From Gordonia pseudamarae (lineage in GTDB: Bacteria; Actinomycetota; Actinomycetes; Mycobacteriales; Mycobacteriaceae): a stretch of 64,000 nt of DNA. Where the stretch lies: the NCBI RefSeq assembly GCF_025273675.1, contig NZ_CP045809.1:3782001-3846000 (forward strand), written 5' to 3'. How positions within the stretch are numbered: position 1 is the first letter of the stretch; the number at the start of each line of letters is the position of its first letter. Position numbers and translations under genes: made by a program. The notes below the pieces were generated by a model. The model searched no databases, was not told the origin of the DNA, and saw only the letters and a program-made list of their open reading frames with translations. Shown piece after piece: positions 6,449 through 35,726 of the stretch.

Positions 6449-7303
6449 TCAGGTGCCGCAGCAGCCACCGGGAGTTCGCACGTCACGCGTGATCGCGTTG
6501 CGAGCCGAGAGTTCGGCGTCGGCGGGATAGTCGACACCGATCAGGCACAATCCGCGGGCCTCTGCGACAGGTACTTGCTGGTTGCGTTCAGTCGCACCGA
6601 GCAACCGTCGGCACCAGCCGATGTCGCGACGGCCGTCTCCGACACTGGCGACGGCGCCGACCAGGGAGCGGACCATCGACCAGCAGAACGCGTCGGCGCT
6701 CACCGATCCGACCAGCACACCGTCGTCGTCGCGGCGCCAGGTAAAGCGTTGCAGCTCGCGGATGGTGGTGGCGCCCTCACGTCGCCGGCAGAATGCGGCG
6801 AAATCGTTGAGCCCCAACAAAGTCTGTGATGCGGCGTTCATCGCGTCGACGTCGAGCGGCCGACGCCACGCGGCTGTGGTGCGGGCGACCACCGGTTCGG
6901 CACCCCACCGGGCATCGGTAAGCCGGTACTCGTAGTGCCGTCGCAACGCCGAGAAGCGGGCATCAAAGTCGGCGGGCACCCGGTGGATCTCCTTGACCCG
7001 CACATCGTCGGGCAGCATCTTGCCCAGCCTTCCGACGAGCATCGACGGATCGCCCGCGATGCTGCGGGTGTCGAGGGCCGACTCCGGGATGTCCGCGTGG
7101 CATACCTGCCCGGTGGCGTGTACTCCCGCATCGGTGCGGCCGGCGACGGTAAGCCGCACCGGCACCCGCAACACCATCGCCAGGGTGTCTTCGAGGACCG
7201 CGCATACCGTCCGCTGATCGGTCTGCCGCGCCCAGCCCGCGAAATCCGTTCCGTCGTAACCCACATCGAGCCGCAGACGGACTAACCCGCTGAGCTGATT
7301 CAC
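6449..7303 (-). CDS. truA: tRNA pseudouridine synthase A
   Basis: Converts uridines 38-40 of the tRNA anticodon stem-loop to pseudouridine. The nucleophilic Asp is in [10 protein letters not shown], and the N-terminal [13 protein letters not shown] block and C-terminal SFCW-like [11 protein letters not shown] block are typical. Length about 284 residues is normal. The start is uncertain. GTG 7303 ([12 protein letters not shown]) has a weak GAGG before it. An upstream GTG at 7339 would fall beside the hairpin that follows rplQ, so I prefer 7303. Position directly after rplQ is the usual actinobacterial arrangement. Confidence 0.95.
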
Positions 7304-7340
7304 CGGGCCTCGTTGCGTATCCCCGCTGATCCCACACACA

Positions 7341-7377
7341 ACGAACCCGTCGTCACCTGAGGTGACGACGGGTTCGT
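7341..7377 (-). terminator. Hairpin between rplQ and truA
   Basis: Arms 7341-7358 and 7360-7377 are perfectly complementary (18 bp). It lies 16 nt after the rplQ stop in the direction of transcription and should end, or strongly attenuate, the rpoA-rplQ transcript before truA. Confidence 0.75.
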
Positions 7378-7392
7378 GGGCAGCGTTGCTGC

Positions 7393-8100
7393 TCAGTCTT
7401 CCGACTCCTGCTGGCTCGGCGGCAGCGAGTAACCCGCGGCCTCGGCATCGGCGTCAGTGGCGAACCAGACCTCGGCGACCGTCGAGTCGTAGAACCGGGT
7501 GCCGGGGCGGTGGTAGAGCTTGGAGCTCTCGTTGCCCTTGATCGGGAAGCCCTCCGGCTGCGATCCGTCCTCGAGCGGGGCGTGCGAACCGGTGGCCGCG
7601 GGAGCCTCCGAGGTGTCGAGCAGACCCACCGGAGCGGCGGTCTCCTCGGACTCGGGGGCGTCGGTGGCCTCGGCCGCCTTCTGCGCCTCGGCGGCCTTGG
7701 ACGCGGCCGCGCGGTTGGCGCGGTTGGCCTCGGTCGACACAGTCTCACCGGTCACCAGCTCGATCACTGCCATGGGGGCGTTGTCGCCCTTGCGGTTCAG
7801 CGTCTTGATGATGCGGGTGTAGCCGCCGTTGCGATCGGCGTACGACGGACCGATCTCCTCGAACAGCACGTGCACGATGTCCTTGTCACGGATGACCTTG
7901 AGGACCTCACGACGGTTGGCGAGCTTGCCGTGCTTGGCGTGCGTGATCAGCTTCTCGGCGTACGGGCGCAACCGCTTGGCCTTGGCTTCGGTGGTGGTGA
8001 TGCGGCCGTGCTCGAAGAGCGAGGTGGCGAGGTTCGCCAAGATCGCCTTCTGATGGCTCGCCGACCCGCCGAGGCGGGCACCCTTTGTGGGCTTGGGCAT
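7393..8100 (-). CDS. rplQ: 50S ribosomal protein L17 with an extra C-terminal domain
   Basis: The first 120 or so residues are canonical L17 ([20 protein letters not shown] through [11 protein letters not shown]). The total of 235 residues is about twice the bacterial norm. After an Ala/Glu-rich linker (about 120-180) comes a compact conserved-looking C-terminal unit: [13 protein letters not shown], then [17 protein letters not shown], then [12 protein letters not shown]. This resembles short domains I know from tails of some actinobacterial secreted nucleases and other proteins; its role on a ribosomal protein is unknown to me. It is the last gene of the infA-rplQ group, and a strong hairpin follows. 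Confidence 0.97.
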
Positions 8101-8192
8101 TGCTATCTCCTAGAAGAGACGACTCTCGATCTTTTCCGAAGACCTCGAGTCACGGGTTCTGATGGTGGGCTACAGCCCCCAGCGCTGTTCGG

Positions 8193-9245
8193 TCAGAGTT
8201 GTTCGGTCTCTGCGAAATCCTCGCCGCCTTCATCGCTGAACGTGGCATCGTCCGACCACGTGCCGGTGGCCGGGTCGTAACCGGCGACCTGCGACGGGTC
8301 GAAGCTGGCCGGGCTGTCCTTGAGCGACAGACCCAGCGCGTGCAGCTTGACCTTCACCTCATCGATCGACTTCTGGCCGAAGTTGCGGATGTCGAGCAGG
8401 TCCGACTCGGTGCGGGCAACCAGCTCGCCGACGGTGTGCACACCTTCGCGCTTGAGGCAGTTGTACGACCGGACGGTGAGCTCGAGCTCCTCGATCGGCA
8501 GGCTGAACGACTGGATGTGATCCGCTTCGGCCGGCGACGGCCCGATCTCGATGCCCTCGGCCTCCACGTTGAGCTCCCGGGCGAGCCCGAACAGCTCGAC
8601 GAGGGTCTTGCCCGCCGACGCCAGCGCATCGCGTGCGCTGATCGAGTTCTTGGTCTCGACGTCGAGCACGAGCCGATCGAAGTCGGTGCGCTGCTCGACG
8701 CGGGTGGCCTCGACCTTGTAGGTGACCTTCAGGACCGGCGAGTAGATCGAGTCGACCGGAATCCGGCCGATCTCGGCACCCGACGCCTTGTTCTGCACCG
8801 CGGGAACATAACCGCGGCCACGCTCGACGACGAGCTCGATTTCGAGCTTGCCCTTGTCATTGAGGGTGGCGATGTGCAGATCGGGGTTGTGCACGGTGAC
8901 ACCGGCCGGGGGCACGATGTCGGCGCCGGTCACGGTGCCCGGCCCCTGCTTGCGCACGTACATGGTGACCGGCTCGTCTTCCTCGGAGCTCACCACGAGG
9001 CCCTTGAGGTTCAGGATGATGTCGGTGACATCCTCCTTCACGCCGGGGACGGTGGTGAACTCGTGCAGGACACCGTCGATGCGGATGCTGGTGATGGCAG
9101 CGCCCGGGATCGACGAGAGCAGGGTACGGCGCAGCGAGTTACCGAGGGTGTAGCCGAAACCGGGTTCGAGCGGTTCGATGACGAACTTCGACCGATTCTC
9201 GGCGACGATCTCTTCGGTGAGGGCAGGTCGCTGTGAGATGAGCAT
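8193..9245 (-). CDS. rpoA: RNA polymerase alpha subunit
   Basis: 350 residues, nearly collinear with mycobacterial RpoA. The N-terminal assembly domain ([20 protein letters not shown]) is followed by the C-terminal domain that contacts UP elements and activators ([32 protein letters not shown]). ATG 9245 begins the usual MLISQRP. It lies between rpsD and rplQ and is transcribed leftward with them. Confidence 0.99.
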
Positions 9246-9335
9246 CTGGTGGATTTCTCCCTATGGCCGACCGCTATTTGACGGCCTAGAAGTGGACCGA
9301 ACAGCTTGTGCTGTAAGGCTGTAGCGATCTGAGGA

Positions 9336-9941
9336 CTACTTGGAGTAGAACTCGACGATGAGCTGTTCGGAGATCGGGATCTCGATCTGGGCGCGCTCGG
9401 GAACGTTGTGCACCAGGATCCGCAGCGTCGACGGAACCACCTGCAGCCAGCCCGGAACCGGACGATCGCCGACGAGCTCCTTGGCGATCTGGAACGGCGT
9501 GGTGGCCAGCGACTTCGGCCGGACATCGATGATGTCGTACTGGCTGACGCGGTAGCTGGGCACATCGACCTTCACACCGTTGACGGTGAAGTGGCCGTGG
9601 CTGACCAGCTGGCGGGCTTGGCGACGGGTCCGGGCGATGCCGGAGCGGTACACGACGTTGTCGAGACGCGTCTCGAGGATGCGCAGCAGCTCGTCACCGG
9701 TCTTGCCGGAGCGACGGTTGGCTTCCTCGTAGTAGCGGCGGAACTGCTTTTCCAGGATGCCGTAGGTGAAGCGGGCCTTCTGCTTCTCCTGCAGCTGGAG
9801 CAGGTACTCGCTCTCCTTGATCCGCGCGCGGCCGTGCTGGCCGGGCGGGTAGGGGCGACGTTCGAACGCCTGGTCTCCGCCGATGAGATCGACACGCAGA
9901 CGACGAGACTTCTTGGTGGCGGGGCCGGTATAACGAGCCAT
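9336..9941 (-). CDS. rpsD: 30S ribosomal protein S4
   Basis: 201 residues starting MARYTGPATKKSRRLRVDL. Nucleates assembly of the 5' domain of 16S rRNA. The S4 RNA-binding domain (RLDNVVYRSGIARTRRQARQ) is intact. The start at ATG 9941 is set by family alignment; the frame extends 18 codons further up without support. Confidence 0.99.
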   Translation of the reverse strand: MARYTGPATKKSRRLRVDLIGGDQAFERRPYPPGQHGRARIKESEYLLQLQEKQKARFTYGILEKQFRRYYEEANRRSGKTGDELLRILETRLDNVVYRSGIARTRRQARQLVSHGHFTVNGVKVDVPSYRVSQYDIIDVRPKSLATTPFQIAKELVGDRPVPGWLQVVPSTLRILVHNVPERAQIEIPISEQLIVEFYSK

Positions 9942-9964
9942 GAGTTTCTCTGTTCCTTTCCCGC

Positions 9965-10372
9965 TTAGACCCGACGCCGCTTGGGCGGACGGCAACCGTT
10001 GTGCGGCTGCGGGGTGACATCGGAGATGGTGCCGACCTCAAGGCCGGCGGCCTGCAACGACCGGATGGCGGTCTCGCGACCCGAACCCGGTCCCTTGACG
10101 AACACGTCGACCTTCTTGACGCCGTGTTCCTGCGCCTTGCGGGCGGCGTTCTCGGCGGCGAGCTGCGCGGCGAACGGGGTGCTCTTACGCGAACCCTTGA
10201 AGCCCACGTGACCCGACGACGCCCAGCTGATCACGTTGCCGTTGGGGTCGGTGATCGAGACGATGGTGTTGTTGAACGTCGACTTGATGTGTGCGTTGCC
10301 GTGCGGGACGTTCTTCTTATCCCGACGGCGTGTGCCCTTCTTGGGGCCTGCGGCGCGTGACTTCGGAGGCAT
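9965..10372 (-). CDS. rpsK: 30S ribosomal protein S11
   Basis: 135 residues with the usual basic head and the C-terminal [26 protein letters not shown] block ending in [10 protein letters not shown]. Platform protein of the small subunit. Its ATG overlaps the last base of the rpsM stop codon, so the two are translationally coupled. Confidence 0.99.
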
Positions 10373-10740
10373 TACTTCTTCTTCCCGGCGATGGTCTTCT
10401 TCGGGCCCTTACGAGTGCGGGCATTGGTCTTGGTGCGCTGTCCGCGGACCGGCAGACCACGACGGTGGCGCAGGCCTTGGTAGCAGCCGATCTCGATCTT
10501 GCGACGGATGTCGGCCTGGACCTCGCGGCGCAGGTCACCCTCGACCTTCACCGAGGCTTCGATGTACTCGCGCAGCTTAGAGATGTCTGCGTCGGTCAGA
10601 TCCTTGGCGCGCAGGTCGGCGCTCAGGCCGGTGGCGGCCAGGATCTCCTTGGAGGTGGTGCGACCAACTCCGTAGATGTACGTGAGTGCGATCTCCAGCC
10701 GCTTTTCGCGGGGAAGATCCACACCAGCAACACGTGCCAT
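10372..10740 (-). CDS. rpsM: 30S ribosomal protein S13
   Basis: 122 residues ([21 protein letters not shown]-terminal [15 protein letters not shown]). Head protein of the small subunit contacting P-site tRNA. The 233-nt gap before it (10741-10973) is large for this cluster and may hold a promoter; no gene is seen there. Confidence 0.99.
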
Positions 10741-10973
10741 GTGGCGTGATTCCTTTACTTGTCAGAGGTCTGCTCCCAGTCCGTCCCGCCTGTGCGGATT
10801 CCGTGGTGAATCCGTATCGGGCCCCGGCCTCTGAACCGGGGGTGGGCGCCTGCGGCGTATGCCGACGCTGGTGCTGGGAGGGCTTCACAAAAGTCTGTTC
10901 AGCTCTGGTCGTGCCTAACTCAGTTCTTGCGTATTCAGTTGTGTGTCTCAAGCGACCACGAGTGGTGCTGTGA

Positions 10974-11087
10974 TCAGCCCTGACGCTGCTTGTGGCGCAG
11001 GTTGTCGCAGATCACCATGACCCGGCCGTTGCGGCGGATCACTTTGCACTTCTCGCAGATCGGCTTGACGCTCGGCTGAACCTTCAC
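10974..11087 (-). CDS. rpmJ: 50S ribosomal protein L36
   Basis: A 37-residue protein with a zinc-type arrangement (CEKC, then a Cys in VICDN), i.e. the zinc-binding C+ form. GTG 11087 has AAGGAG 6 nt upstream, and the family always starts at this point ([14 protein letters not shown]). Longer upstream extension is not supported. Confidence 0.97.
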
Positions 11088-11249
11088 GTCTCGCTCCTTA
11101 ACATGGGCCTGCTGGGCGTCGGGCTTGAGTCCGGTCTTCCCTCCTCGCTCGGGATCGCAAGCTCCCCCTCGCTCGTCAGTCCAGACCGGACACGCCTTCC
11201 TGCCCACCAGACCGGCTGGGCGGTCCAGTGGTGTGACTACCAGACCCGA

Positions 11250-11471
11250 TTACTTGTACCGGTACACGATTCGGCCACGTCCGAGGTCGTAGGGCGAAAG
11301 CTCAACGACCACCCGATCCTCAGGCAGGATGCGGATGTAGTGCTGCCGCATCTTGCCGCTGATGTGGGCGAGGACCTTATGTCCGTTCTCCAGCTCAATG
11401 CGGAACATCGCATTGGGCAGAGGTTCGACAACACGCCCCTCGACCTCGATGGCCCCGTCTTTCTTCGCCAT
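11250..11471 (-). CDS. infA: Translation initiation factor IF-1
   Basis: 73 residues, [20 protein letters not shown] to GRIVYRYK: the single OB-fold factor that occupies the ribosomal A site during initiation. GGAGG is only 2 nt before the ATG, a tight but usable spacing. It is the first gene of the rpmJ-rpsM-rpsK-rpsD-rpoA-rplQ group. Its frame stays open far upstream but only this part is coding. Confidence 0.98.
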
Positions 11472-11771
11472 ATCCTCCGCGATCCTGGCGTGCGATTGCC
11501 CGCAAGCCCGGTTGAATCCATGTCTATCCGTTAGGGTGATGGCACTCCGCTGCCGGAGACCACCGTGGTGCGCCTCCCCGGCCACGAGCCGCCGCCGGAG
11601 CGATGACACGCGAAAACCGGGCACGCGACGCGCACCGACGATCCATGTTACGCCTAGTGCGCTATCGGGTCCAAATGCGACGCCGAAGCGGCGTCCGCCA
11701 CGAGAAAGCTCCGCGGGCGCGACCGGCGATCCGGCCTGCACGCGCGGGCGTCGGCCTGGCACACTTGGCTG
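11472..11771. other. Divergent intergenic region between infA and a holin-like gene
   Basis: 300 nt with no gene. It should hold the leftward promoter of the infA group and a rightward promoter for the membrane protein. I could not fix -10/-35 elements with confidence. Confidence 0.5.
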
Positions 11772-12176
11772 ATGCAGCAGTTTCTGGTGCGCACCGCGCT
11801 GACGGCGATCACCCTGTGGATAGCGACGCTGATCGTGCCCGGCCTCGACTTCGTCGGTGGCGACGAGACGTGGGAGAAGATCGGCATCGTCGTTGTCGTG
11901 GCGATCATCTTCGGCCTGGTCAACGCGGTCGTCAAACCTGTCGTGCAATTGTTCGCGATCCCGCTGTACATCCTCACCATCGGGCTCGTGCACATCGCGA
12001 TCAACGCGCTGATGCTGGAGCTGACGGCCTGGATCACGCGTAACACCACCCACTGGGGGCTGGCCGTGGACGATTTCTTCTGGTCGGCGATCCTCGGCGC
12101 GATCGTCGTCTCGATCGTCAGCTGGATCCTCGACCTGACGCTGAAAGAGGACCCGTGGCGGTGGGCCGACCGATAG
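11772..12176 (+). CDS. Four-helix membrane protein of the YvlD / phage holin-like (Phage_holin_4_2) family
   Basis: 134 residues with four hydrophobic segments (approximately 5-25, 35-55, 60-85 and 95-120) and the family-typical run [20 protein letters not shown], then [12 protein letters not shown]. Cellular members are small inner-membrane proteins of unknown role, often near stress genes. The phage holin name is only by family. It precedes the SIMPL lipoprotein by 34 nt on the same strand and is probably co-transcribed with it. Confidence 0.85.
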
Positions 12177-12210
12177 GGTCGGTGTCATCCGAATCGTCCG
12201 AAGGCGCCCG

Positions 12211-12924
12211 ATGACCACACGTCCGCTGATCCTGCTGTCGGTTCCGGTTGTCGCGGCGGGACTGCTCGCCGGTTGTGGCGACGACGGTTCCGCCGGCGAC
12301 GAACCCCGCAGGGTCACCGTCATCGGCACCGGCGAGGTCACCGGTGTCCCCGACACCGTCACCGCGGTGGTGGGCGTCGAGGCCGAGGGCGACGACGTGT
12401 CGACAGCCCTGAACGAGGCCAACACCAAGATCAAGGCCGTCACCGACGCCGTGGTCAAGGTCGGCGTCAAGGCCGAAGACGTGCAGACCCAGCAGGTCTC
12501 GCTGTCCCCGCGACACACCAGCCCGGGACCGGGGCAGGTGTCGGGTATCGGCGGGTACACCGCCGCCAATACGCTCACCATCAAGGTCCGCGACGTCGGC
12601 ACCGCCTCCGTGGCATTGAGCGCGGCCGTCGACGCCGGTGGCGACAACACCCGTATCACCAGCGTCGGCCTGTCCATCGACGACGACGCCGACCTGCTCG
12701 AACAGGCCCGCACCCGCGCCTTCACCGACGCCCGCACCCGCGCCGAACAGTACGCGTCCCTGTCCGGGGACAAGCTCGGCCCGGTGCTCTCGATCGACGA
12801 GCAGGTCAGCGGCGCCTCCCCCAAGAACTATGCCCGCGAGAGCGCTCTCGACGCCGCGGTTCTCATCTCCCCCGGACAACAGACCCTCACCTTCACGGTC
12901 ACGGTGTCGTTCACACTCACGTAG
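12211..12924 (+). CDS. SIMPL-domain lipoprotein
   Basis: 237 residues. The signal peptide ends in the lipobox LLAGC, so the mature protein is a lipid-anchored surface or periplasm-side protein. The rest is a SIMPL (DUF541) domain: [18 protein letters not shown] at the start, a long helical region with repeating Ala/Thr/Lys, and a C-terminal strand [11 protein letters not shown]. Members form large oligomers and are linked to stress and immune signalling in other organisms; the molecular function is unknown. ATG 12211. The next gene is convergent and only 16 nt away. Confidence 0.9.
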
Positions 12925-27715: not shown

Positions 27716-28071
27716 GGTTGACCGTCAACCTTTCTCGTAGTGGTTCCCATACAACGCGGGAGTGCGGACACTCCCCCGGTGGGCCTTCCACGAAGTGGAC
27801 AGTTGTGCAGGTTCTCCCCTGGCGATGCCATTGGCTTTTCGCCGGCACCGCGTCGGGTATGAAGTTGTGGCTCCTGGGGGCACAGTTCACCCAGGCAACC
27901 GCTCAAGTGTAGGGAACCTGCGGTCAGAACCCAAATCGTCCCGGATCAGGTCCCAAACCCCACCGCTTGTCGACCCATTCCAGATAGCTGCAGCTGTCAG
28001 TAGCCACACCTACCATCGGATGCAGTTGTGAGAATGCATCCAGCATCAATCCCAATGAAGGCGGCGGGCCG
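27716..28071. promoter_or_regulatory. Divergent control region between rpsH and the nuclease-HerA operon
   Basis: 356 nt with no gene. A 7-bp hairpin (27758-27764 with 27769-27775, 4-nt loop) lies in the rpsH leader. An inverted repeat GGATGCA/TGCATCC (28018-28024 with 28035-28041) lies 30 nt before the nuclease start and could be an operator. Promoter elements could not be fixed. Confidence 0.45.
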
Positions 28072-29103
28072 ATGTGGTGGCAGGAGGCGATCCGGGCGGG
28101 AAAGGCGCTGCGCGTGCTCGGCGTGAGCGGTGACGACCTTGACGCGCTGACGGAGATCGATGCCCCGAACAGTCCGATCGTCGTCGGGCTCTGCCCTCCT
28201 GAATCAGGTGCCCGGGCGCGGACGATCGTCGACTTGGTCGCCGGGGAACTGCAGAACGCCGTGCTGAATCTGTACCCGACATGGCTATCGGCGTTCGGCG
28301 ACGCCGGCCTCACGGCTGATAGAGGTTCGCTCGGTGTTGCAGCCGCAGTAGCGATCGCCCGGCGTATGAGCAAACAGACCACCGCCTACTCACCGTTCGT
28401 CGTCGATCTTGCCCGGTCGGCCGCATCGAACACACAACCACGATCCGAGTACCCGACCGATATCCGATTGTCCGGTCTGGCCGATCTGCTTCGGCGCAGT
28501 TACGGTCGCGACGACATCGTCATAGTCGTGACCGCGGACTACGAGGTCACCGACAGGGCGGCAGCGATCGGGTCTGCGGCCGAGTGGCTGGCACATGCCG
28601 GACGCCTCACCGTGTGGCTCGTCGGCCACGAATTCGACCAGCTCACCCGGATACCGTGCATCAATCTGCGTTGCGACCGCGGGGCCACAGCCACAGCCGT
28701 CCCCTCCGGATCCCCAGATACGGCCACGGCATCGGCGGCCATCACGCTCACCCCGTTCGGTGGCCGACCCGCGGCGAACAGCGCAGCCGAACAGTTCCTC
28801 GAACGGGCGTTGGCGCGTGAACCGTGGGCGAGTGAACGGGTGTGGAACCGTGGCGTGGATGGTCTGGATGCACTGGCTCAGCCCATCCGCGTCGACCTGC
28901 AGTGGCGGTACGAACGCATCATCGTCGAGCTCGACGGCGCCGACCATCGCGCTCCGCAGAAATACGCCGCAGACCGATTGCGCGACAACCTCCTCCAATT
29001 TGCCGGCTATATGGTCCTGCGCTATCCGAATGAACGAGTTCTCGATGATGTGGGGGCGGTCGTCACCGAACTCCGCGAAGTCGTGCGCGCTCGAAGCGAT
29101 TAG
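28072..29103 (+). CDS. DUF559 / Vsr-like PD-(D/E)XK nuclease fused to an unknown N-terminal domain
   Basis: 343 residues. About residues 230-340 match the DUF559 nuclease pattern: an early Glu (SAAEQFLERALA), a strand with RVDLQWRYERIIVELDG (Asp and the ExD-type pair), His in ADHRAPQKY, DRLRDNLLQFAGY and VLRYPNERVLDD. That is a restriction-endonuclease fold with plausible catalytic residues. The first 220 residues are not recognised; they contain an alternating strand-helix region (DDIVIVVTADYEVTD; GRLTVWLVGHEFDQL) like a Rossmann-type sensor. It is first of a three-gene rightward operon with a winged-helix-like protein and a HerA-type ATPase. By analogy with nuclease-HerA defence pairs it may cut foreign DNA. 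Confidence 0.75.
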   Translation: MWWQEAIRAGKALRVLGVSGDDLDALTEIDAPNSPIVVGLCPPESGARARTIVDLVAGELQNAVLNLYPTWLSAFGDAGLTADRGSLGVAAAVAIARRMSKQTTAYSPFVVDLARSAASNTQPRSEYPTDIRLSGLADLLRRSYGRDDIVIVVTADYEVTDRAAAIGSAAEWLAHAGRLTVWLVGHEFDQLTRIPCINLRCDRGATATAVPSGSPDTATASAAITLTPFGGRPAANSAAEQFLERALAREPWASERVWNRGVDGLDALAQPIRVDLQWRYERIIVELDGADHRAPQKYAADRLRDNLLQFAGYMVLRYPNERVLDDVGAVVTELREVVRARSD

Positions 29104-29152
29104 GCCGACCGAAGACTGGGCAGCAACCCTGGCAATAAGGAAAGATCACCCT

Positions 29153-29806
29153 GTGACCAACGATGCACTGTCGCCTCCCGAACGCACCATCCTCTTCGCG
29201 CTGATGGCTCATGCGACCACGATCCGGAACCCGGACCTCAAGGCAATCGCACCCGAGATGACTCCGACTCGCAGGGCGAAATTCAACAAGTTGGGACTGG
29301 TCGAGTCCTCAATGGTCACACGGACTTACGTCCACACCCTCACCGACGCCGGTTGGGCCTGGTGTTCGGCGGAACTCAGTGCACCGACGCCACCGAAGGC
29401 ACGAACCGCGGAGAGAGCGCTGGCCGAGGTCCTGCGCGGCATCGGCCGCTACCTGAGCGCCACTGACACACTGTTGTCGGACATTTTCGGTATCGAGGCG
29501 CCCCCGCAACAGAAATCCGCAAACCAGACGTCCGCAGGTCCTGCAGCCGACCTCGGAGCCCGCGTGCGCGCGGCATATGGCGGCATGCGTTCTCGCCCCG
29601 GCGCGTGGGTGCGGGTCGCCGAACTGCGCGCCTCGCTGGCAGACATCGACCGGAACGACTTCGACGCAACCCTGGTCGCGTTGCAGCATGAGCCCGGCGT
29701 CCGCCTTGAGCCCAACGAGAAGCAGTCTTCGCTCACCGCCGAGGATCGTGCCGCAGCGGTTCGGGTCGGCAATCAGTTCTGCCACCTGTTTGCGATCGAG
29801 GACTGA
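29153..29806 (+). CDS. Unknown protein, probable winged-helix N-terminus, middle gene of the nuclease-HerA operon
   Basis: 217 residues. The first 75 (LSPPERTILFALMAHATTIR, then LVESSMVTRTYVHTLTDAGW) have the order helix-helix-recognition helix-wing typical of a MarR-like winged helix. The C-terminal 90 residues contain a second compact region (RPGAWVRVAELRASLADIDR, DFDATLVALQHEPGVRLEP, LTAEDRAAAVRVGNQFCHL) that also looks like a winged helix. I know no named family. GTG 29153 has AAGGA about 11 nt upstream. Its stop overlaps the next ATG (TGATG), so it is made together with the ATPase. It may be a DNA-binding adaptor or autoregulator. Confidence 0.6.
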   Translation: MTNDALSPPERTILFALMAHATTIRNPDLKAIAPEMTPTRRAKFNKLGLVESSMVTRTYVHTLTDAGWAWCSAELSAPTPPKARTAERALAEVLRGIGRYLSATDTLLSDIFGIEAPPQQKSANQTSAGPAADLGARVRAAYGGMRSRPGAWVRVAELRASLADIDRNDFDATLVALQHEPGVRLEPNEKQSSLTAEDRAAAVRVGNQFCHLFAIED

Positions 29807-32800
29807 TGGATCCACAAACACGACGGGCACTCGAATCGATCCGACTGGATTGGGCGACCACCCGCGACGACATCTGGGAACCTCAGGCCTTGGTACACGT
29901 CGACGGCCTGCATAGCGCCGTCATCGACGAGACGATGCGATCGTTCAGCGATGCGCGGGCCAGCACGGCAGCGAGCCCGCTCGGCGTGGTGATCCAGGGG
30001 CCCGCCGGATCGGGAAAAACACACCTGCTGGGACAGGTCCGCGAACGAGTCCAGAACGCGGGCGGCTACTTCTTTCTCGCCAAGCTCCTCGATGGTACGA
30101 ACTTTTGGCAATCGATCATCGTGTGCATCACCGAAGACCTGAATCGGCCGTCGCCGACCCACTCGTCACAATTGGTCCAGCTTCTCGACCAACTCGGCCG
30201 GGAAGCCGGCCTGTCCCCCGACGACCAGCGGTCGATCGTCGGCGACGCGCCGCTGTCACCTGAGATTCTCGAACGATTCATCCGTCGTGTCTACCGCAAG
30301 CACCCCACGCACCGCCGACGTTCTCAGCACATTCTGCGCGCCCTTGTCCTCACCGCCGCAGAGGATTTCGCTCTCCAGGACCTCGGTGCCGCTTTCCTTT
30401 TTCTCCAACTCGACGATGACGACGAAGCCAAGACCTGGGGCATCCAGGTCAAGAGGCTCGGATACCAGGAGGTCGTCGAGAATATTTCGCGCATCCTGGC
30501 CATGGACGAAGCGGCCGTGCTCGCGATCGACCAGCTCGACACCCTCATCGTGACCGACCACGACGGACACTCCGACCAGAGCGCCGTCGACACCATCGCG
30601 CACGGCTTGATGACCCTACGTGAAACACTCAGCCGGACAACGTCAATTGTGTCATGCCTGTCGACTGCCTGGACCATCCTCGAAGACGAAGCCCCACGCG
30701 CGGTCGTCGACAGATTCCGCAAACTACCGCCACTGCAACGGCCGACGTCGGCCGACTTCGGCCGCGCCCTACTGGCCAGACGATTCGCCGCGTTCTACGA
30801 AACAGCTTCCTTCACCCCGCCGTACCCGACCTGGCCGATCAATGAGGCCGCTCTGGCCGAATCCATCAACCACACCCCACGCACGCTGATGCAGGCCGCC
30901 GATCGGCACATTGGGATATGTCTGCGCACGGGAACATCATCGGAGATGATGACCCTCCGCGACAGCAGTACCACCAAGACCGTGACCGCTCACGACGACC
31001 CTGAGTTCGCCGCGCTCGACCAGCGATTCGACGATTTGATCCGGGCAGCCGATCCGACGGCGATCATCGACCCGTCGACGGAGGACACCCGTGTCCCGGA
31101 GTTATTGATGGCCGGTTTGGCGACCTGGGTCGGTGCCCTCGCGGCCGACGCTGAATCCTACCGGTGGGATGATAGGCCGGGTAAGCAACCCAATCTCCAT
31201 GCCCGACTTCGCCGGACCATCGACCCGGACACCGACGCCCAACAATCCTGGTCGTTCCGGGCCATCGCATCGACCAACGCGATTGCGGCACAGACCCGTC
31301 TGGCGAAAGCCTCCGCCGCAGCCGGATTAACCAACCACCTCAATACTCTGGTCATCCTGCGGCAGGCACCGTGGCCGTCGGGCCCCAAGACCGCAACCGT
31401 GGTCACCGAATTCATCGATCGCGGTGGCCGGGTGATCGCCTGGTCCGCCGACGACATCCGGGTATTGATCGCAGTGCGCGCGCTTCGCGCCGAACACGCC
31501 GACCGTCTCGGTGAATGGATCGTGTCACGGAACCCCGTGTCACGAATCGCGTGGCTCGATCAAATCCTATCCCCGACCGGGGACAGTTCCGGCGCTCCTT
31601 CCGGTGAACCCTCACCGCACGAACCGGATCACGAACCGAGCGCGGTTCCACCCCCGCCGGATGTTCACCCGCAGAACAGTGACGGTCCAGATAATGACAG
31701 GCCCGAGTACCCCGAGAGCAACAACGCCACTACTTCCATCTCTCCACAACCGTCCGCCGACGACGAACCCACCCGCAACGCCGAACCAGTGGCTCCGGCA
31801 CCGCACCCAGAGCCCATCCAGGTGCGACCGGATCATTTCACCCTGGGGTCGGTGGTCGGCGCACTGACCGCGCGCGAGGTCGGCATCGACCTGGAGGCAC
31901 TGCGCAAACACACGGTGATCTTCGCCGGATCCGGTTCAGGCAAAACAGTTCTCATCCGGCGCATCATTGAAGAGTGCGCTTTGCGTGGAGTCTCATCCAT
32001 CGTTCTCGATGTGAACAACGACCTCGCCCGCCTCGGACAGCCATGGCCGGCGGGCTCCCGTGAATGGCCGAACGCCGACGAGGAGACCGCGGCCCGCGAC
32101 TACATCGCGAACACCGATGTCGCCGTGTTCACTCCGGGAAAGATGTCGGGGCGGCCGTTGAGCTTCCAGATGCTGCCCGACTTCACCGAGGTCGTCGACA
32201 ACCCCGACGAGTTCGGCGCCGCAGTCGCCTCGGCGCTCGGAGCGTTGGCGCCACGGGCCCTCGCGATCGGCAAGTCGGCCAAGCACAAGCGCATGATGGC
32301 CACGCTCAAACAGACCATCGAACATTTCGGCCGGACCGGTGGCGGCACCATCGACACGCTCGTGGACCTGCTCGCCGACCTCCCCGACACCTTGTGCGAA
32401 TTCGCCGACAGCCCCAAACTCGGGCGGGAGTTATCGGACAACCTGCGTTCCGACCTGATCACCGACCACGTGTACAGCAACGAACCGGTCGACCCGTCGG
32501 TCCTGCTGACACCTCCGCCCGGCTACCGTGCCAGGGTTTCGGTGATCAACCTGTCCGGTCTGCCCGACGCCAACAAGCGCAACAACTTCATCGGCCAACT
32601 ACAAATGTCGCTGTTCGCGTGGATCAAGAAGCACCCGGCCGGCAACAAACCGCTCGGTGCCGTCCTGGTCATGGACGAGGCGCAGAATTTCGCACCGTCG
32701 GAGAAAACCACGACATGCACGGAAAGCACCTTGGCACTGGCAGCTCAGGCAAGGAAGTACGGGCTGGGCCTCATCTTCGCGACTCAGGCACCTAAAGGCC

Positions 32801-33072
32801 TGCACAGCAAGATCGCGGGGAACGCCTCCAACCAGTTCCTCGGCCGATTCCAGTCGCCGGTCCACATCTCTGCGGCCAAGGAACTCGCGGCAGCCAAGAG
32901 TTCAGACGTTTCGGACATCGGCCGTCTGACCACCGGTGTCTACTACGCGGCCGTCGACGGCGGCCCATTCACCAAGATCCGCACCCCCCTGTGCCTCAGC
33001 TACCACCCGCCGAGCCCGCCCTCGGAGGAGGAGGTCATTGCGATCGCCCGCACCTCGGCGTCCTCGCACTGA
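29806..33072 (+). CDS. Two-ATPase protein: N-terminal AAA ATPase fused to C-terminal HerA/DUF87-type translocase
   Basis: 1088 residues. N-terminal ATPase: Walker A GPAGSGKT at 65-72 and Walker B-like AAVLAIDQLDTLI near 240, ORC/AAA-like. Residues about 585-675 are a Pro/Glu/Asp-rich linker (SGEPSPHEPDHEPSAVPPPP). C-terminal ATPase: FTLGSVVGALTAREVGIDLE, Walker A GSGSGKT at 708-714, Walker B VLVMDEAQNFAP (Asp957-Glu958) and a sensor block ARKYGLGLIFATQAPKGL. These are hallmarks of HerA/VirB4-type hexameric DNA pumps. Both P-loops look active. Joining these two ATPases in one chain is unusual to me. Operon context with a nuclease suggests DNA surveillance or restriction. Confidence 0.8.
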   Translation: MDPQTRRALESIRLDWATTRDDIWEPQALVHVDGLHSAVIDETMRSFSDARASTAASPLGVVIQGPAGSGKTHLLGQVRERVQNAGGYFFLAKLLDGTNFWQSIIVCITEDLNRPSPTHSSQLVQLLDQLGREAGLSPDDQRSIVGDAPLSPEILERFIRRVYRKHPTHRRRSQHILRALVLTAAEDFALQDLGAAFLFLQLDDDDEAKTWGIQVKRLGYQEVVENISRILAMDEAAVLAIDQLDTLIVTDHDGHSDQSAVDTIAHGLMTLRETLSRTTSIVSCLSTAWTILEDEAPRAVVDRFRKLPPLQRPTSADFGRALLARRFAAFYETASFTPPYPTWPINEAALAESINHTPRTLMQAADRHIGICLRTGTSSEMMTLRDSSTTKTVTAHDDPEFAALDQRFDDLIRAADPTAIIDPSTEDTRVPELLMAGLATWVGALAADAESYRWDDRPGKQPNLHARLRRTIDPDTDAQQSWSFRAIASTNAIAAQTRLAKASAAAGLTNHLNTLVILRQAPWPSGPKTATVVTEFIDRGGRVIAWSADDIRVLIAVRALRAEHADRLGEWIVSRNPVSRIAWLDQILSPTGDSSGAPSGEPSPHEPDHEPSAVPPPPDVHPQNSDGPDNDRPEYPESNNATTSISPQPSADDEPTRNAEPVAPAPHPEPIQVRPDHFTLGSVVGALTAREVGIDLEALRKHTVIFAGSGSGKTVLIRRIIEECALRGVSSIVLDVNNDLARLGQPWPAGSREWPNADEETAARDYIANTDVAVFTPGKMSGRPLSFQMLPDFTEVVDNPDEFGAAVASALGALAPRALAIGKSAKHKRMMATLKQTIEHFGRTGGGTIDTLVDLLADLPDTLCEFADSPKLGRELSDNLRSDLITDHVYSNEPVDPSVLLTPPPGYRARVSVINLSGLPDANKRNNFIGQLQMSLFAWIKKHPAGNKPLGAVLVMDEAQNFAPSEKTTTCTESTLALAAQARKYGLGLIFATQAPKGLHSKIAGNASNQFLGRFQSPVHISAAKELAAAKSSDVSDIGRLTTGVYYAAVDGGPFTKIRTPLCLSYHPPSPPSEEEVIAIARTSASSH

Positions 33073-33177: not shown

Positions 33178-34332
33178 ATGGGCGTGATCTCCAAGCTCAA
33201 GGGCGAGCTCGTCGACATCATCGAATGGTTCGACGACACTCGCACGACGCTGGCGTGGCGTTTTCCGCGCTACAACAACGAAATCAAGAACGGTGCCCAG
33301 CTGATCGTCCGGGAGGGCCAGAAGGCGGTGTTCGTGTACCGCGGCCGGCTCGCGGACACCTTCGGGCCGGGTAACTATGAGCTGACCACCGAAAATCTGC
33401 CGATCCTGTCAACGATCCAGGGGTGGAAGCACGGTTTCAAGAGCCCGTTCCGTTCCGAGGTGTACTTCATCAACACCCGGCCGGTCACCGAACTGCGGTG
33501 GGGCACCCCCAACCCGATCACCATCCGCGACCCCGATTTCAAGATGGTGCAGGTCCGGGCCAACGGCATGTGTGTGGTGCGGGTGGCCGATCCCGCGATC
33601 TTCCTGCGTGAGGTGATCGGCACCGACAGCAACGTCAACGTCGATGAGATCTCGGAGTTGCTGCGGCGCATCATCGCGCAGGCATTTTCCGACATGATCC
33701 TGCAGACCGGCGTCGGGGTGATCGATCTGCAGGGCAAGGTCGGTGAGCTCTCGCAGAAGCTGAAGGTGTTCGTCCAGGAGCGGGTCGACGACGAGTACGG
33801 ACTCGGGATCGAGGACATTCTGCTCAACGTGTCGCTGCCGGAGGAGATCACCGCGGCGATGACCCGGGGCGTGGCGCGCGGTGTGGAGGAGCAGGGTTTC
33901 CTCAATCAGGTCGACGACATGCAGCGCTATCAGCAGGGCAAGCTCGGTGAGGCGATGGTCGCGGGCGCGGCCAATCCCGGCGGCAGTTCGGTGGGCGATT
34001 TCCTGGGTGCCGGTATGGGTATGGCGCTCGGCCAGCAGATGGGCATGGGCGGCGCCGTCGCCGGTCCCGCACAGCCGGCTCCGGCCCCCGCGGCGGCACC
34101 ACCGCCGCTGCCGACGGCCACCCAATATCACGTGGAACAGAACGGTCAGGCCGGCGGACCGTACACGGCCGCGCAGTTGCAGCAGTCCATCGCCGCCGGT
34201 TCGGTGACCAGGCAGACGCTGGTGTGGTCGGCGAACATGGCCGGGTGGACGGCGGCCGGGCAGGTTCCCGAACTCGCCGCGCTGTTCCCCGCCGTTCCGC
34301 CGCCGCTGCCGCCATCGATGCCCCCGGCCTAG
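33178..34332 (+). CDS. SPFH-domain protein with C-terminal GYF_2 domain (YdjI type)
   Basis: 384 residues. Residues 1-260 form an SPFH/virion-core-type domain (VISKLKGELVDIIEWFDD, IVREGQKAVFVYRGRLADTF, VDEISELLRRIIAQAFSD). A Gly/Met/Pro-rich linker follows. The last 75 residues are a GYF_2 domain (YHVEQNGQAGGPYTAAQLQQ, LVWSANMAGWTAAGQV) that binds Pro-rich partners. The next protein begins with a Pro-rich stretch, a natural ligand. In B. subtilis, YdjI works with YdjG and PspA-like YdjF in envelope-stress defence. There is no transmembrane helix; it is probably membrane-associated through YdjG. Confidence 0.85.
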   Translation: MGVISKLKGELVDIIEWFDDTRTTLAWRFPRYNNEIKNGAQLIVREGQKAVFVYRGRLADTFGPGNYELTTENLPILSTIQGWKHGFKSPFRSEVYFINTRPVTELRWGTPNPITIRDPDFKMVQVRANGMCVVRVADPAIFLREVIGTDSNVNVDEISELLRRIIAQAFSDMILQTGVGVIDLQGKVGELSQKLKVFVQERVDDEYGLGIEDILLNVSLPEEITAAMTRGVARGVEEQGFLNQVDDMQRYQQGKLGEAMVAGAANPGGSSVGDFLGAGMGMALGQQMGMGGAVAGPAQPAPAPAAAPPPLPTATQYHVEQNGQAGGPYTAAQLQQSIAAGSVTRQTLVWSANMAGWTAAGQVPELAALFPAVPPPLPPSMPPA

Positions 34333-34421
34333 ACACTCGCCAGATTTCACCGGTCCAGATGCTCGGCCAGGTTCAGCACCCGACCTGAGACCGCCGCATT
34401 CTTGTCCGAGAGGATCCCTCG

Positions 34422-35726
34422 ATGACCACTCCCCCCGTGCCGCCACCGCTGCCGTCCGACGGACCGCCACCTCCACCGCCCGGCGCCCCACCACCGCTGC
34501 CACCCACGGGTGCGGGCAGCCCGCCACCGATCCCGCCCCGGCAGGCCGGGCCGCCGCAGGACCGACGACCGCCTGCCGCGCAGGCCCCGGTGCCCGACTC
34601 ACGCTCCGGGCGGGCCGGCCAGTATCACGCCACCGAGGACACCCGCACGTTTCCGTGCGTCAATTGCGGCGCCAACCTGGTGTTCGATCCGGCGACCGGC
34701 GTGCTGCGCTGCCCCAGCTGCAACAGCACCCGCGAAATCGCCCGCACCGACGCCAGGATCGGTCTGCACGATCTGCGCAGTTCCGAGGTCGCGGCCGGCA
34801 GCACCCGTGGGCTGTTGTCGGCGGACGATCCCGCAGCCTCCGACGAACACCAGGTGGTGTGCCAGAACTGCGGTGGCACAACCGTGTTCACCGGAACACT
34901 GACCGCAACCCGCTGCCCGTACTGCGCGTCACCGATCCAGCGCGACGACATTCAGGACGCGCCCAAGACGTTGCCCGTCGACGGGGTGATCCCGTTCGGG
35001 GTCGACAGCAAACAGGCGCGGCAGAATATCGAGAAATGGATCAGTTCACGCTGGTTCGCGCCGACGGAGTTCAAGAAATACCGCACCCTCGGTTCGTTCT
35101 CCAGCGTGTACTTCTCGTACTTCAGTTACGACACCACCGCTTACACCCGTTACTCCGGGCAGCGCGGTGACGACTACACAGTCGTCGTCGGCGAGGGAGA
35201 CGATAGGCACACCGAAACCCGCACCCGCTGGAGCCACGTTCACGGCGAGGTGGTCGATAACTTCAAAGATGTTGCAGCCCTGGCAAATAAGGGCATCGAT
35301 GCGGAGCGTGTGGAGGAACTCAAGCCGTGGCCGATCCAGACGGCACGCCCGTTCACCGGCGAGTATCTGGCCGGTCACCTCGCCCGCACCTATGAGATCG
35401 GCCCCGATGAGGGTTTCCAGATCGCCCGCCGCGAGGAGATCGATGCGCGGATCACGTCGACGGTGCGCCGCGATATCGGCGGCGACAAGCAGCGCATCTC
35501 GTCGTCGGAATCGCGATTCAACCCATTGCAGTTCCGGTATCTGTTGCTGCCCATCTGGCTGCTGACGGTGGTGTACGACTCGAAACCGTTCCAGGTGTAC
35601 ATCAACGGTGTCACCGGCGAGGTGCAGGGTTCGCGGCCGTACAGTAAGACCAAGATCATCTCCGCGATCGTCGCCGCCCTCGCGCTCATCGCGGCGATAG
35701 TCATTCTCGTACAGGCGGTGAGATAG
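34422..35726 (+). CDS. Membrane protein with TFIIB-type zinc ribbons (YdjG type)
   Basis: 434 residues. The N-terminal 65 are extremely Pro-rich (PPVPPPLPSDGPPPPPPGAP), a likely partner of the GYF domain next door. Two zinc ribbons follow: CVNCGANLVF...CPSC and CQNCGGTTVF...CPYC. A soluble beta-rich middle comes next, and one transmembrane helix lies near the end (IISAIVAALALIAAIVILV). It anchors the SPFH complex at the membrane in the known B. subtilis pair. Start ATG 34422 lies 89 nt after the SPFH gene. Confidence 0.82.
   Translation: MTTPPVPPPLPSDGPPPPPPGAPPPLPPTGAGSPPPIPPRQAGPPQDRRPPAAQAPVPDSRSGRAGQYHATEDTRTFPCVNCGANLVFDPATGVLRCPSCNSTREIARTDARIGLHDLRSSEVAAGSTRGLLSADDPAASDEHQVVCQNCGGTTVFTGTLTATRCPYCASPIQRDDIQDAPKTLPVDGVIPFGVDSKQARQNIEKWISSRWFAPTEFKKYRTLGSFSSVYFSYFSYDTTAYTRYSGQRGDDYTVVVGEGDDRHTETRTRWSHVHGEVVDNFKDVAALANKGIDAERVEELKPWPIQTARPFTGEYLAGHLARTYEIGPDEGFQIARREEIDARITSTVRRDIGGDKQRISSSESRFNPLQFRYLLLPIWLLTVVYDSKPFQVYINGVTGEVQGSRPYSKTKIISAIVAALALIAAIVILVQAVR

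Follow-up and report, generated by a model that had tools for sequence, protein, structure and literature searches.

A stretch of 64,000 nucleotides from Gordonia pseudamarae (assembly GCF_025273675.1, contig NZ_CP045809.1, positions 3,782,001 to 3,846,000 of the forward strand), called here the window, carries a trio of rightward genes, NUC, WH and AAAHER, across positions 28072-33072. These encode a predicted nuclease, a winged-helix protein and a fusion of an Orc-like AAA+ ATPase with a HerA-type motor, respectively, and the three tightly spaced rightward genes that an earlier sequence-only reading had proposed at this place were borne out. The features of the trio, in positions of the window, are as follows.

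28072..29103, + strand: NUC gene, 343 aa, N-terminal region followed by a C-terminal DUF559 nuclease domain
28891..29085, + strand: predicted nuclease domain of NUC, residues 274-338
29153..29806, + strand: WH gene, 217-aa tandem winged-helix protein
29806..33072, + strand: AAAHER gene, 1088-aa fusion of AAA+, alpha/beta, linker and HerA parts
29914..30966, + strand: Orc/Cdc6/TnsC-like AAA+ module of AAAHER, residues 37-387
29998-30021, + strand: Walker A motif of the AAA+ module, G65-T72
31003..31569, + strand: alpha/beta domain, residues ~400-588
31576..31824, + strand: disordered linker, residues 591-673
31825..33063, + strand: HerA/FtsK-type motor, residues 674-1086
31927-31947, + strand: Walker A motif of the HerA motor, residues 708-714
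32674-32691, + strand: Walker B motif of the HerA motor, DEAQNF, residues 957-962

The WH gene starts with GTG at 29153, preceded by AAGGAAAG, and its stop codon has one base in common with the start of AAAHER in a TGATG junction. An open frame of 1120 codons was found; mononucleotide shuffling of the 5 kb, repeated 300 times, gave no frame above 415, so the long frame is not due to chance. A palindrome at 27983-27998 is the sole inverted repeat of note next to the cassette. The scan for promoters gave one site against 0.9 expected and that for terminators seven against 3.5, and neither was used as evidence. Relatives were obtained from a scan of GTDB species genomes, in which 80 of 106 relatives were kept as loci (78 actinobacterial and two alphaproteobacterial, L050 and L058). 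The window, 19 Gordonia stretches and three plasmid records brought the total to 103 loci, for which a similarity match at any place within the fetched sequence decided the type; they include three identical AAAHER pairs that came from two collections (G045/L003, G047/L005 and G011/L059).

NUC is a predicted DUF559 nuclease with conserved catalytic residues. Pfam PF04480 (DUF559) matches residues 274-338 with an E-value (E) of 1.1e-11, and a profile match to PDB 3hrl, an 'Endonuclease-Like Protein', was obtained at E 1.4e-11. The residues D275, E286, D288, G289, H292, D301, R302, R304 and D305 are invariant in 22 aligned homologues, and the catalytic motif is retained in all 55 called NUC genes, in agreement with the earlier proposal that the first gene ends in a nuclease domain with plausible catalytic residues. 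We take this domain to be of the PD-(D/E)XK/Vsr-like fold class. In PADLOC, 18 of the 22 homologues matched DpdF (best E 6.4e-6), six matched mREase_II and one PDC-M07A, and these matches would indicate a common nuclease-like domain and nothing further.

The AlphaFold model of WH (predicted local confidence, pLDDT, 89.8) contains two winged helices, at residues ~1-80 and ~130-215. The fold is therefore that of the winged-helix-like protein expected from the letters, though with two domains where one had been read. Winged-helix proteins made up most of the Foldseek hits to the model, with the best hit at E 5.9e-3 and none below 1e-3, and the WH homologues gave weak PADLOC matches only, at E 0.017-0.046 and in one or two members each. 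Calmodulin chains matched by the WH profile (E 2e-5) were rejected as a chance match of helical segments, since the model is a winged helix.

AAAHER matches the Pfam families AAA_22 (E 3e-10) and DUF87 (E 1.5e-9), and the residues of both Walker A motifs and of the HerA Walker B motif are invariant across 27 aligned homologues, which upholds the earlier description of two intact P-loops, one ORC/AAA-like and one HerA/DUF87-like. The first Walker A motif is present in 79 of the 80 loci, the exception (L065) adjoining a contig end, while the second fits one motif expression in 94 of 98 proteins and a second expression in the other four, from Streptomyces. The disordered linker between the ATPase modules was likewise recovered, with pLDDT below 50 at residues 591-615 and 617-673. 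Both modules of the proposed AAA-HerA fusion thus stand, but an extra alpha/beta domain at residues ~400-588 had been overlooked. In the model it lies between the AAA+ module and the linker, with the order helix-strands-helix-strand, and no winged helix is apparent after it. Five segments of this domain gave no Pfam match above the cut-off, inspection by eye of 99 aligned proteins showed no conserved (D/E)-x-K, and TCAD9 reached the domain of one homologue only below the cut-off (E 0.029); it may be a candidate for a catalytically dead domain like that of restriction endonucleases (REases). The motor has a fold in common with SIR2-HerA, DUF4297-HerA and DndH, when aligned with HerA chains it is matched from chain residue 109-152 onward, and sequence profiles favour HerA.

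The WH-AAAHER pair is the constant part of these loci. All 80 loci have a WH homologue no more than 200 bp upstream of AAAHER, and of 97 called pairs of the two genes 83 share 1 or 4 bases; for NUC and WH the same overlap was observed in 30 of 53 called pairs, with 19 bases in eight more. Typing of the nuclease position assigned NUC to 59 loci, DUF4365 to six and neither to 38. The 59 comprise 55 called genes, two loci recognized by translated search (L066 and L112) and two with remnants only (L022 and L061), while the 38 include three with little upstream sequence (L031, L038 and L065), one with half a gene at a contig end (L123) and three in which the core is broken or incomplete (L055, L063 and L115). 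DUF4365 (PF14280) was found by Pfam in L040 (E 1.7e-14) and L049 (E 9.5e-12) and by similarity in four more loci, the six, in which it has a companion protein, belonging to Kribbella, Actinomycetospora and four Streptomyces. On these family assignments the nuclease position is exchangeable, a predicted DUF4365 nuclease replacing DUF559 in the six loci. In Kribbella and Streptomyces (L040 8321-9334 and L049 8259-9344) this companion, a protein of 337-361 aa (family C74), is encoded between DUF4365 and WH; it has no match in Pfam, and profile comparison showed no similarity to NUC. In Rhodococcus sp. IEGM 1381 (L069, 610-9579) the order is NUC-WH-AAAHER-WH-AAAHER, the second core having no second nuclease, and in L116 (G007, 7001-12426) the N-terminal part alone (residues 1-587) is repeated directly after a full AAAHER.

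A quick tree of 96 of the 99 AAAHER proteins was built, with three truncated or doubtful rows dropped and with long-branch warnings. On this tree the state of the nuclease (NUC, DUF4365 or none) changes 10 times, or 11 if L022 and L061 count as without NUC, and the presence of NUC alone changes nine times (10 with those two as lacking), at least seven of these being forced by the well-supported, starred branches; such counts do not separate gain from loss. Two mycobacterial clades, one of 14 and one of eight rows, are wholly without nuclease. Remnants of NUC adjoin the core in L022 (55 residues, 85%), L061 (61 residues, 59%) and L034 (17 residues, 82%), which indicates that the nuclease was lost at those loci; all three are Mycobacterium/Mycolicibacterium relatives, and the remnants lie upstream of WH. 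The Gordonia stretch G013 lacks about 1 kb at the place where G018 carries NUC. Among 13 hand-picked pairs, the ratio of nonsynonymous to synonymous substitution (dN/dS) of AAAHER was 0.07-0.13 in seven nuclease-less pairs and 0.04-0.13 in five that have NUC, the one mixed pair giving 0.08, and that of WH was 0.09-0.22 in six nuclease-less pairs, 0.05-0.20 in five with NUC and 0.16 in the mixed pair. The low values in nuclease-less pairs imply that the core is kept under purifying selection when the nuclease is absent, and the repeated changes of the nuclease around a conserved core suggest that the core functions without it or with one encoded elsewhere. WH-AAAHER might accordingly be complete alone, a translocase that binds DNA and either remodels it or keeps out or removes foreign DNA, nucleases being optional additions; the changes on the tree, the mycobacterial clades, the remnants and the low core ratios all speak for it. 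We nevertheless judge it unlikely, as 57 of the 103 loci carry a NUC gene and six more DUF4365, and a nuclease could be encoded elsewhere in the nuclease-less genomes.

AAAHER is patchily distributed. Matches were obtained in 19 of 59 Gordonia genomes (E 1e-20) and in 84 of 301 genomes of the family (E 1e-60), the window's own genome included in both. Several of the 84 show a stop inside the match; as the open frame reaches about 1,050 residues or longer in most of these, the stop presumably lies at an end. In a sample of 396 genomes of the phylum, 12 passed E 1e-20 and six, the window's own among them, were full-length, all within the window's order. The distribution bears on a chromosomal repair module, in which HerA would drive resection with a nuclease, as in the archaeal HerA-NurA. 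No AAAHER match was found in 40 of the 59 Gordonia or 217 of the 301 family genomes, the nuclease is swapped or lost across loci, and HerA is partnered not by NurA but by a tandem winged-helix protein and an Orc module, so that we hold a repair role to be rather unlikely.

The genomic place of the trio is partly fixed. Taking the nearest copy, the distance between AAAHER and rpsH is at most 34 kb in 18 of the 19 Gordonia carriers and 112 kb in the remaining one; the rpsH-rpsN gap is a variable zone in Gordonia, occupied by other genes in non-carriers (20 stretches, one of only 3 kb). A four-gene block of about 1240, 560, 220 and 250 aa, presumably narGHJI, was observed in this zone (L126-L156) with other genes in differing order. 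The trio sits between rplN and rpsQ in 13 Rhodococcus/Rhodococcoides loci and likewise in Tsukamurella; L008 and L014 are among the Rhodococcus loci situated elsewhere. One relative, G028, represents an empty site of G053, with 103 bp against 5093 bp between the flanks; no clear target duplication was seen in this pair, which differs by another gene nearby (h79) as well.

For the neighbourhood, 203 proteins of 110-1400 aa were taken from 16 loci, and PADLOC was run on 140 of them, which belong to 13 loci outside Mycobacteriaceae. Among the matches listed (25 of 49 families), mad3 appeared in three members, mad6, C3a189 and MkoA in two each, and many PD-T4-6 models in two members each. These resemble kinases and ABC ATPases of a generic kind and were not counted as defence genes; the neighbour at L049:5518-7266 is a protein kinase by Pfam. 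A second scan covered ten hand-picked proteins, without a systematic count. This second scan gave the one clear case, at a distant locus, L056 of Allorhizocola, where the trio adjoins defence genes, namely those for a CARF-HEPN protein (E 1.1e-214), an MkoA-like protein of Mokosh (E 5.7e-87) and a DrmC-like protein (E 9.3e-18). CHAT and HSP70 neighbours in Xanthobacter (L050), and VapBC with a helicase in Tsukamurella, are suggestive only. Evidence from the neighbourhood thus exists but is thin.

Taken together, we consider it probable, on indirect evidence and at roughly 60%, that the trio forms a restriction-like anti-invader complex. An Orc-like AAA+ module with winged helices, a HerA motor and a DUF559 or DUF4365 nuclease point to DNA loading, translocation and cutting. 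WH and AAAHER would be the core of the machine: WH and the Orc/Cdc6-like module may recognise particular DNA and load onto it, the HerA module would act as a DNA motor, probably hexameric, and the DUF559 nuclease may dock on this machine and cut the DNA fed to it, the target presumably being phage, plasmid or transferred DNA. This reading is favoured by the conserved adjacency, the retained catalytic motif, the exchange of nucleases, the likeness of the HerA fold, the patchiness, the empty site and the defence neighbours of L056, and by the counter-invader role predicted for systems of like composition in the accessible text of PMC10853773.

Several observations weigh against it. The 38 loci have neither NUC nor DUF4365 in the fetched stretch, and two more keep only a remnant of NUC. 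At E 1e-15 the 31 genes scanned, of the 48 called in the window, gave no specific defence match; two mad3 matches passed this threshold, both unspecific in appearance, one of them apparently to an ABC exporter. The AAAHER tree, with its caveats, mostly follows taxonomy, and in Gordonia the locus keeps close to rpsH; the trio thus resembles a long-resident set of chromosomal genes, lost in places, more than it does a mobile island. At the sensitivity used, neither IMG/VR nor a set of 50,697 phage records yielded a relative. Three plasmid records carry relatives, but two (NZ_LR134464.1 and NZ_LT559118.1) look like chromosomes, as one carries the ribosomal protein operon and the other measures 11.85 Mb; the third is a Methylobacterium plasmid of 1.57 Mb. 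These plasmid records also bear on a part in a DNA transfer apparatus, with AAAHER as a conjugation coupling or VirB4-type motor. Beyond the two chromosome-like records, no relaxase or type IV secretion family was found in ten window proteins or ten neighbours of relatives, and the profiles, which had been proposed as a check on conjugation, favour HerA, so that this role is very improbable. A bolder proposal, which we regard as possible though doubtful, is that WH and Orc-HerA form a self-sufficient DNA surveillance unit with the nuclease as a replaceable and dispensable plug-in, and that many mycobacterial relatives may need only loading and translocation to handle foreign DNA, or may draw on a nuclease encoded elsewhere. 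The natural variants, with one nuclease, another or none, make the need of HerA-type machines for a nuclease directly testable.

Downstream of AAAHER, at 33178-35726, lie genes for an SPFH/GYF_2 protein (33178) and a zinc-ribbon protein (34422). They were rejected as members of the system because another Gordonia (G051, L131) has the pair, with no trio beside it, near rpsH. Farther on, 38470-64000 holds carrier-protein/thioesterase and TauD genes, an apparent AMP-dependent ligase and a protein of at least 3669 residues continuing past the window edge, and looks like a nonribosomal peptide cluster.

The trio was compared with known systems. PADLOC has no model set for it, and neither a paper evidently on this gene set nor a laboratory test of this kind of system turned up in the open-access literature searched. 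The earlier interpretation, a system related to the nuclease-HerA pairs but with a different nuclease, was partly supported. Like SIR2-HerA (Nezha) and DUF4297-HerA, the trio combines a HerA motor of matching fold with a separately encoded effector, here DUF559, NUC having no PADLOC match to SIR2 or DUF4297; unlike them, it has an extra winged-helix protein. The HerA barrel of those systems appears to be unmatched, since the chain alignments start at residue 109 or later and residues 591-673 are predicted to be disordered; we take the N-terminal region of HerA chains before residue 109 to be this barrel, and its place seems to be taken by the linker and the AAA+ module. The trio differs from DndFGH in that the DndH profile covers AAAHER residues 910-995 only (E 5.9e-5), with no PADLOC match to DndF or DndG for NUC or WH, nor in the same 31 window genes (E 1e-15). 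With MADS it has in common a motor for which mad8 is the best PADLOC profile (E 3.3e-23); of the mad1-mad8 set this is all it has, and NUC (22 homologues) and WH (25 homologues) matched no mad model at E 0.1. A related BREX-linked HerA system has conserved parts that include PglZ and DUF6079 (PMC12839542).

The closest likeness is to the Orc/CDC6-HerA/FtsK 'capture' systems, a class predicted from genomes in 2024 as counter-invader. As far as the accessible text describes them, their operons combine Orc/CDC6, an inactive REase, an active REase, HerA/FtsK (of clade 2, 4 or 5) and winged helix-turn-helix (wHTH) domains in single or several polypeptides, the inactive REase sits between the AAA+ and a C-terminal wHTH, and a subset has a fast-evolving multi-wHTH gene with 2-4 such domains (PMC10853773). 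That portion of the text names no Pfam family or organism for the class, nor does it describe a single-chain Orc-HerA with DUF559 in actinobacteria, an exchange for DUF4365 or repeated loss of the nuclease. Compared with the class as so described, the trio differs in that AAA+ and HerA form one chain with a disordered linker, in that no C-terminal wHTH is apparent after the alpha/beta domain, which lies at the position expected for the inactive REase and shows no conserved (D/E)-x-K by eye, and in that the nuclease is DUF559, DUF4365 or none found (38 of 103 loci). It agrees in having an Orc/CDC6-clade AAA+ ATPase, a HerA/FtsK motor coupled to it, here on the same polypeptide, a REase-fold nuclease in the operon, here a predicted DUF559 with invariant residues, and a gene with several wHTH domains, the modelled WH having two. 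A wholly new system is therefore not supported and was rejected, the domain set having already been predicted (PMC10853773, accessible text). Judged by its predicted domains, and with the alpha/beta domain as a candidate for the inactive REase, the trio counts as a member of the 2024 class, of which it would be a compact and widespread representative (84 of 301 family genomes).
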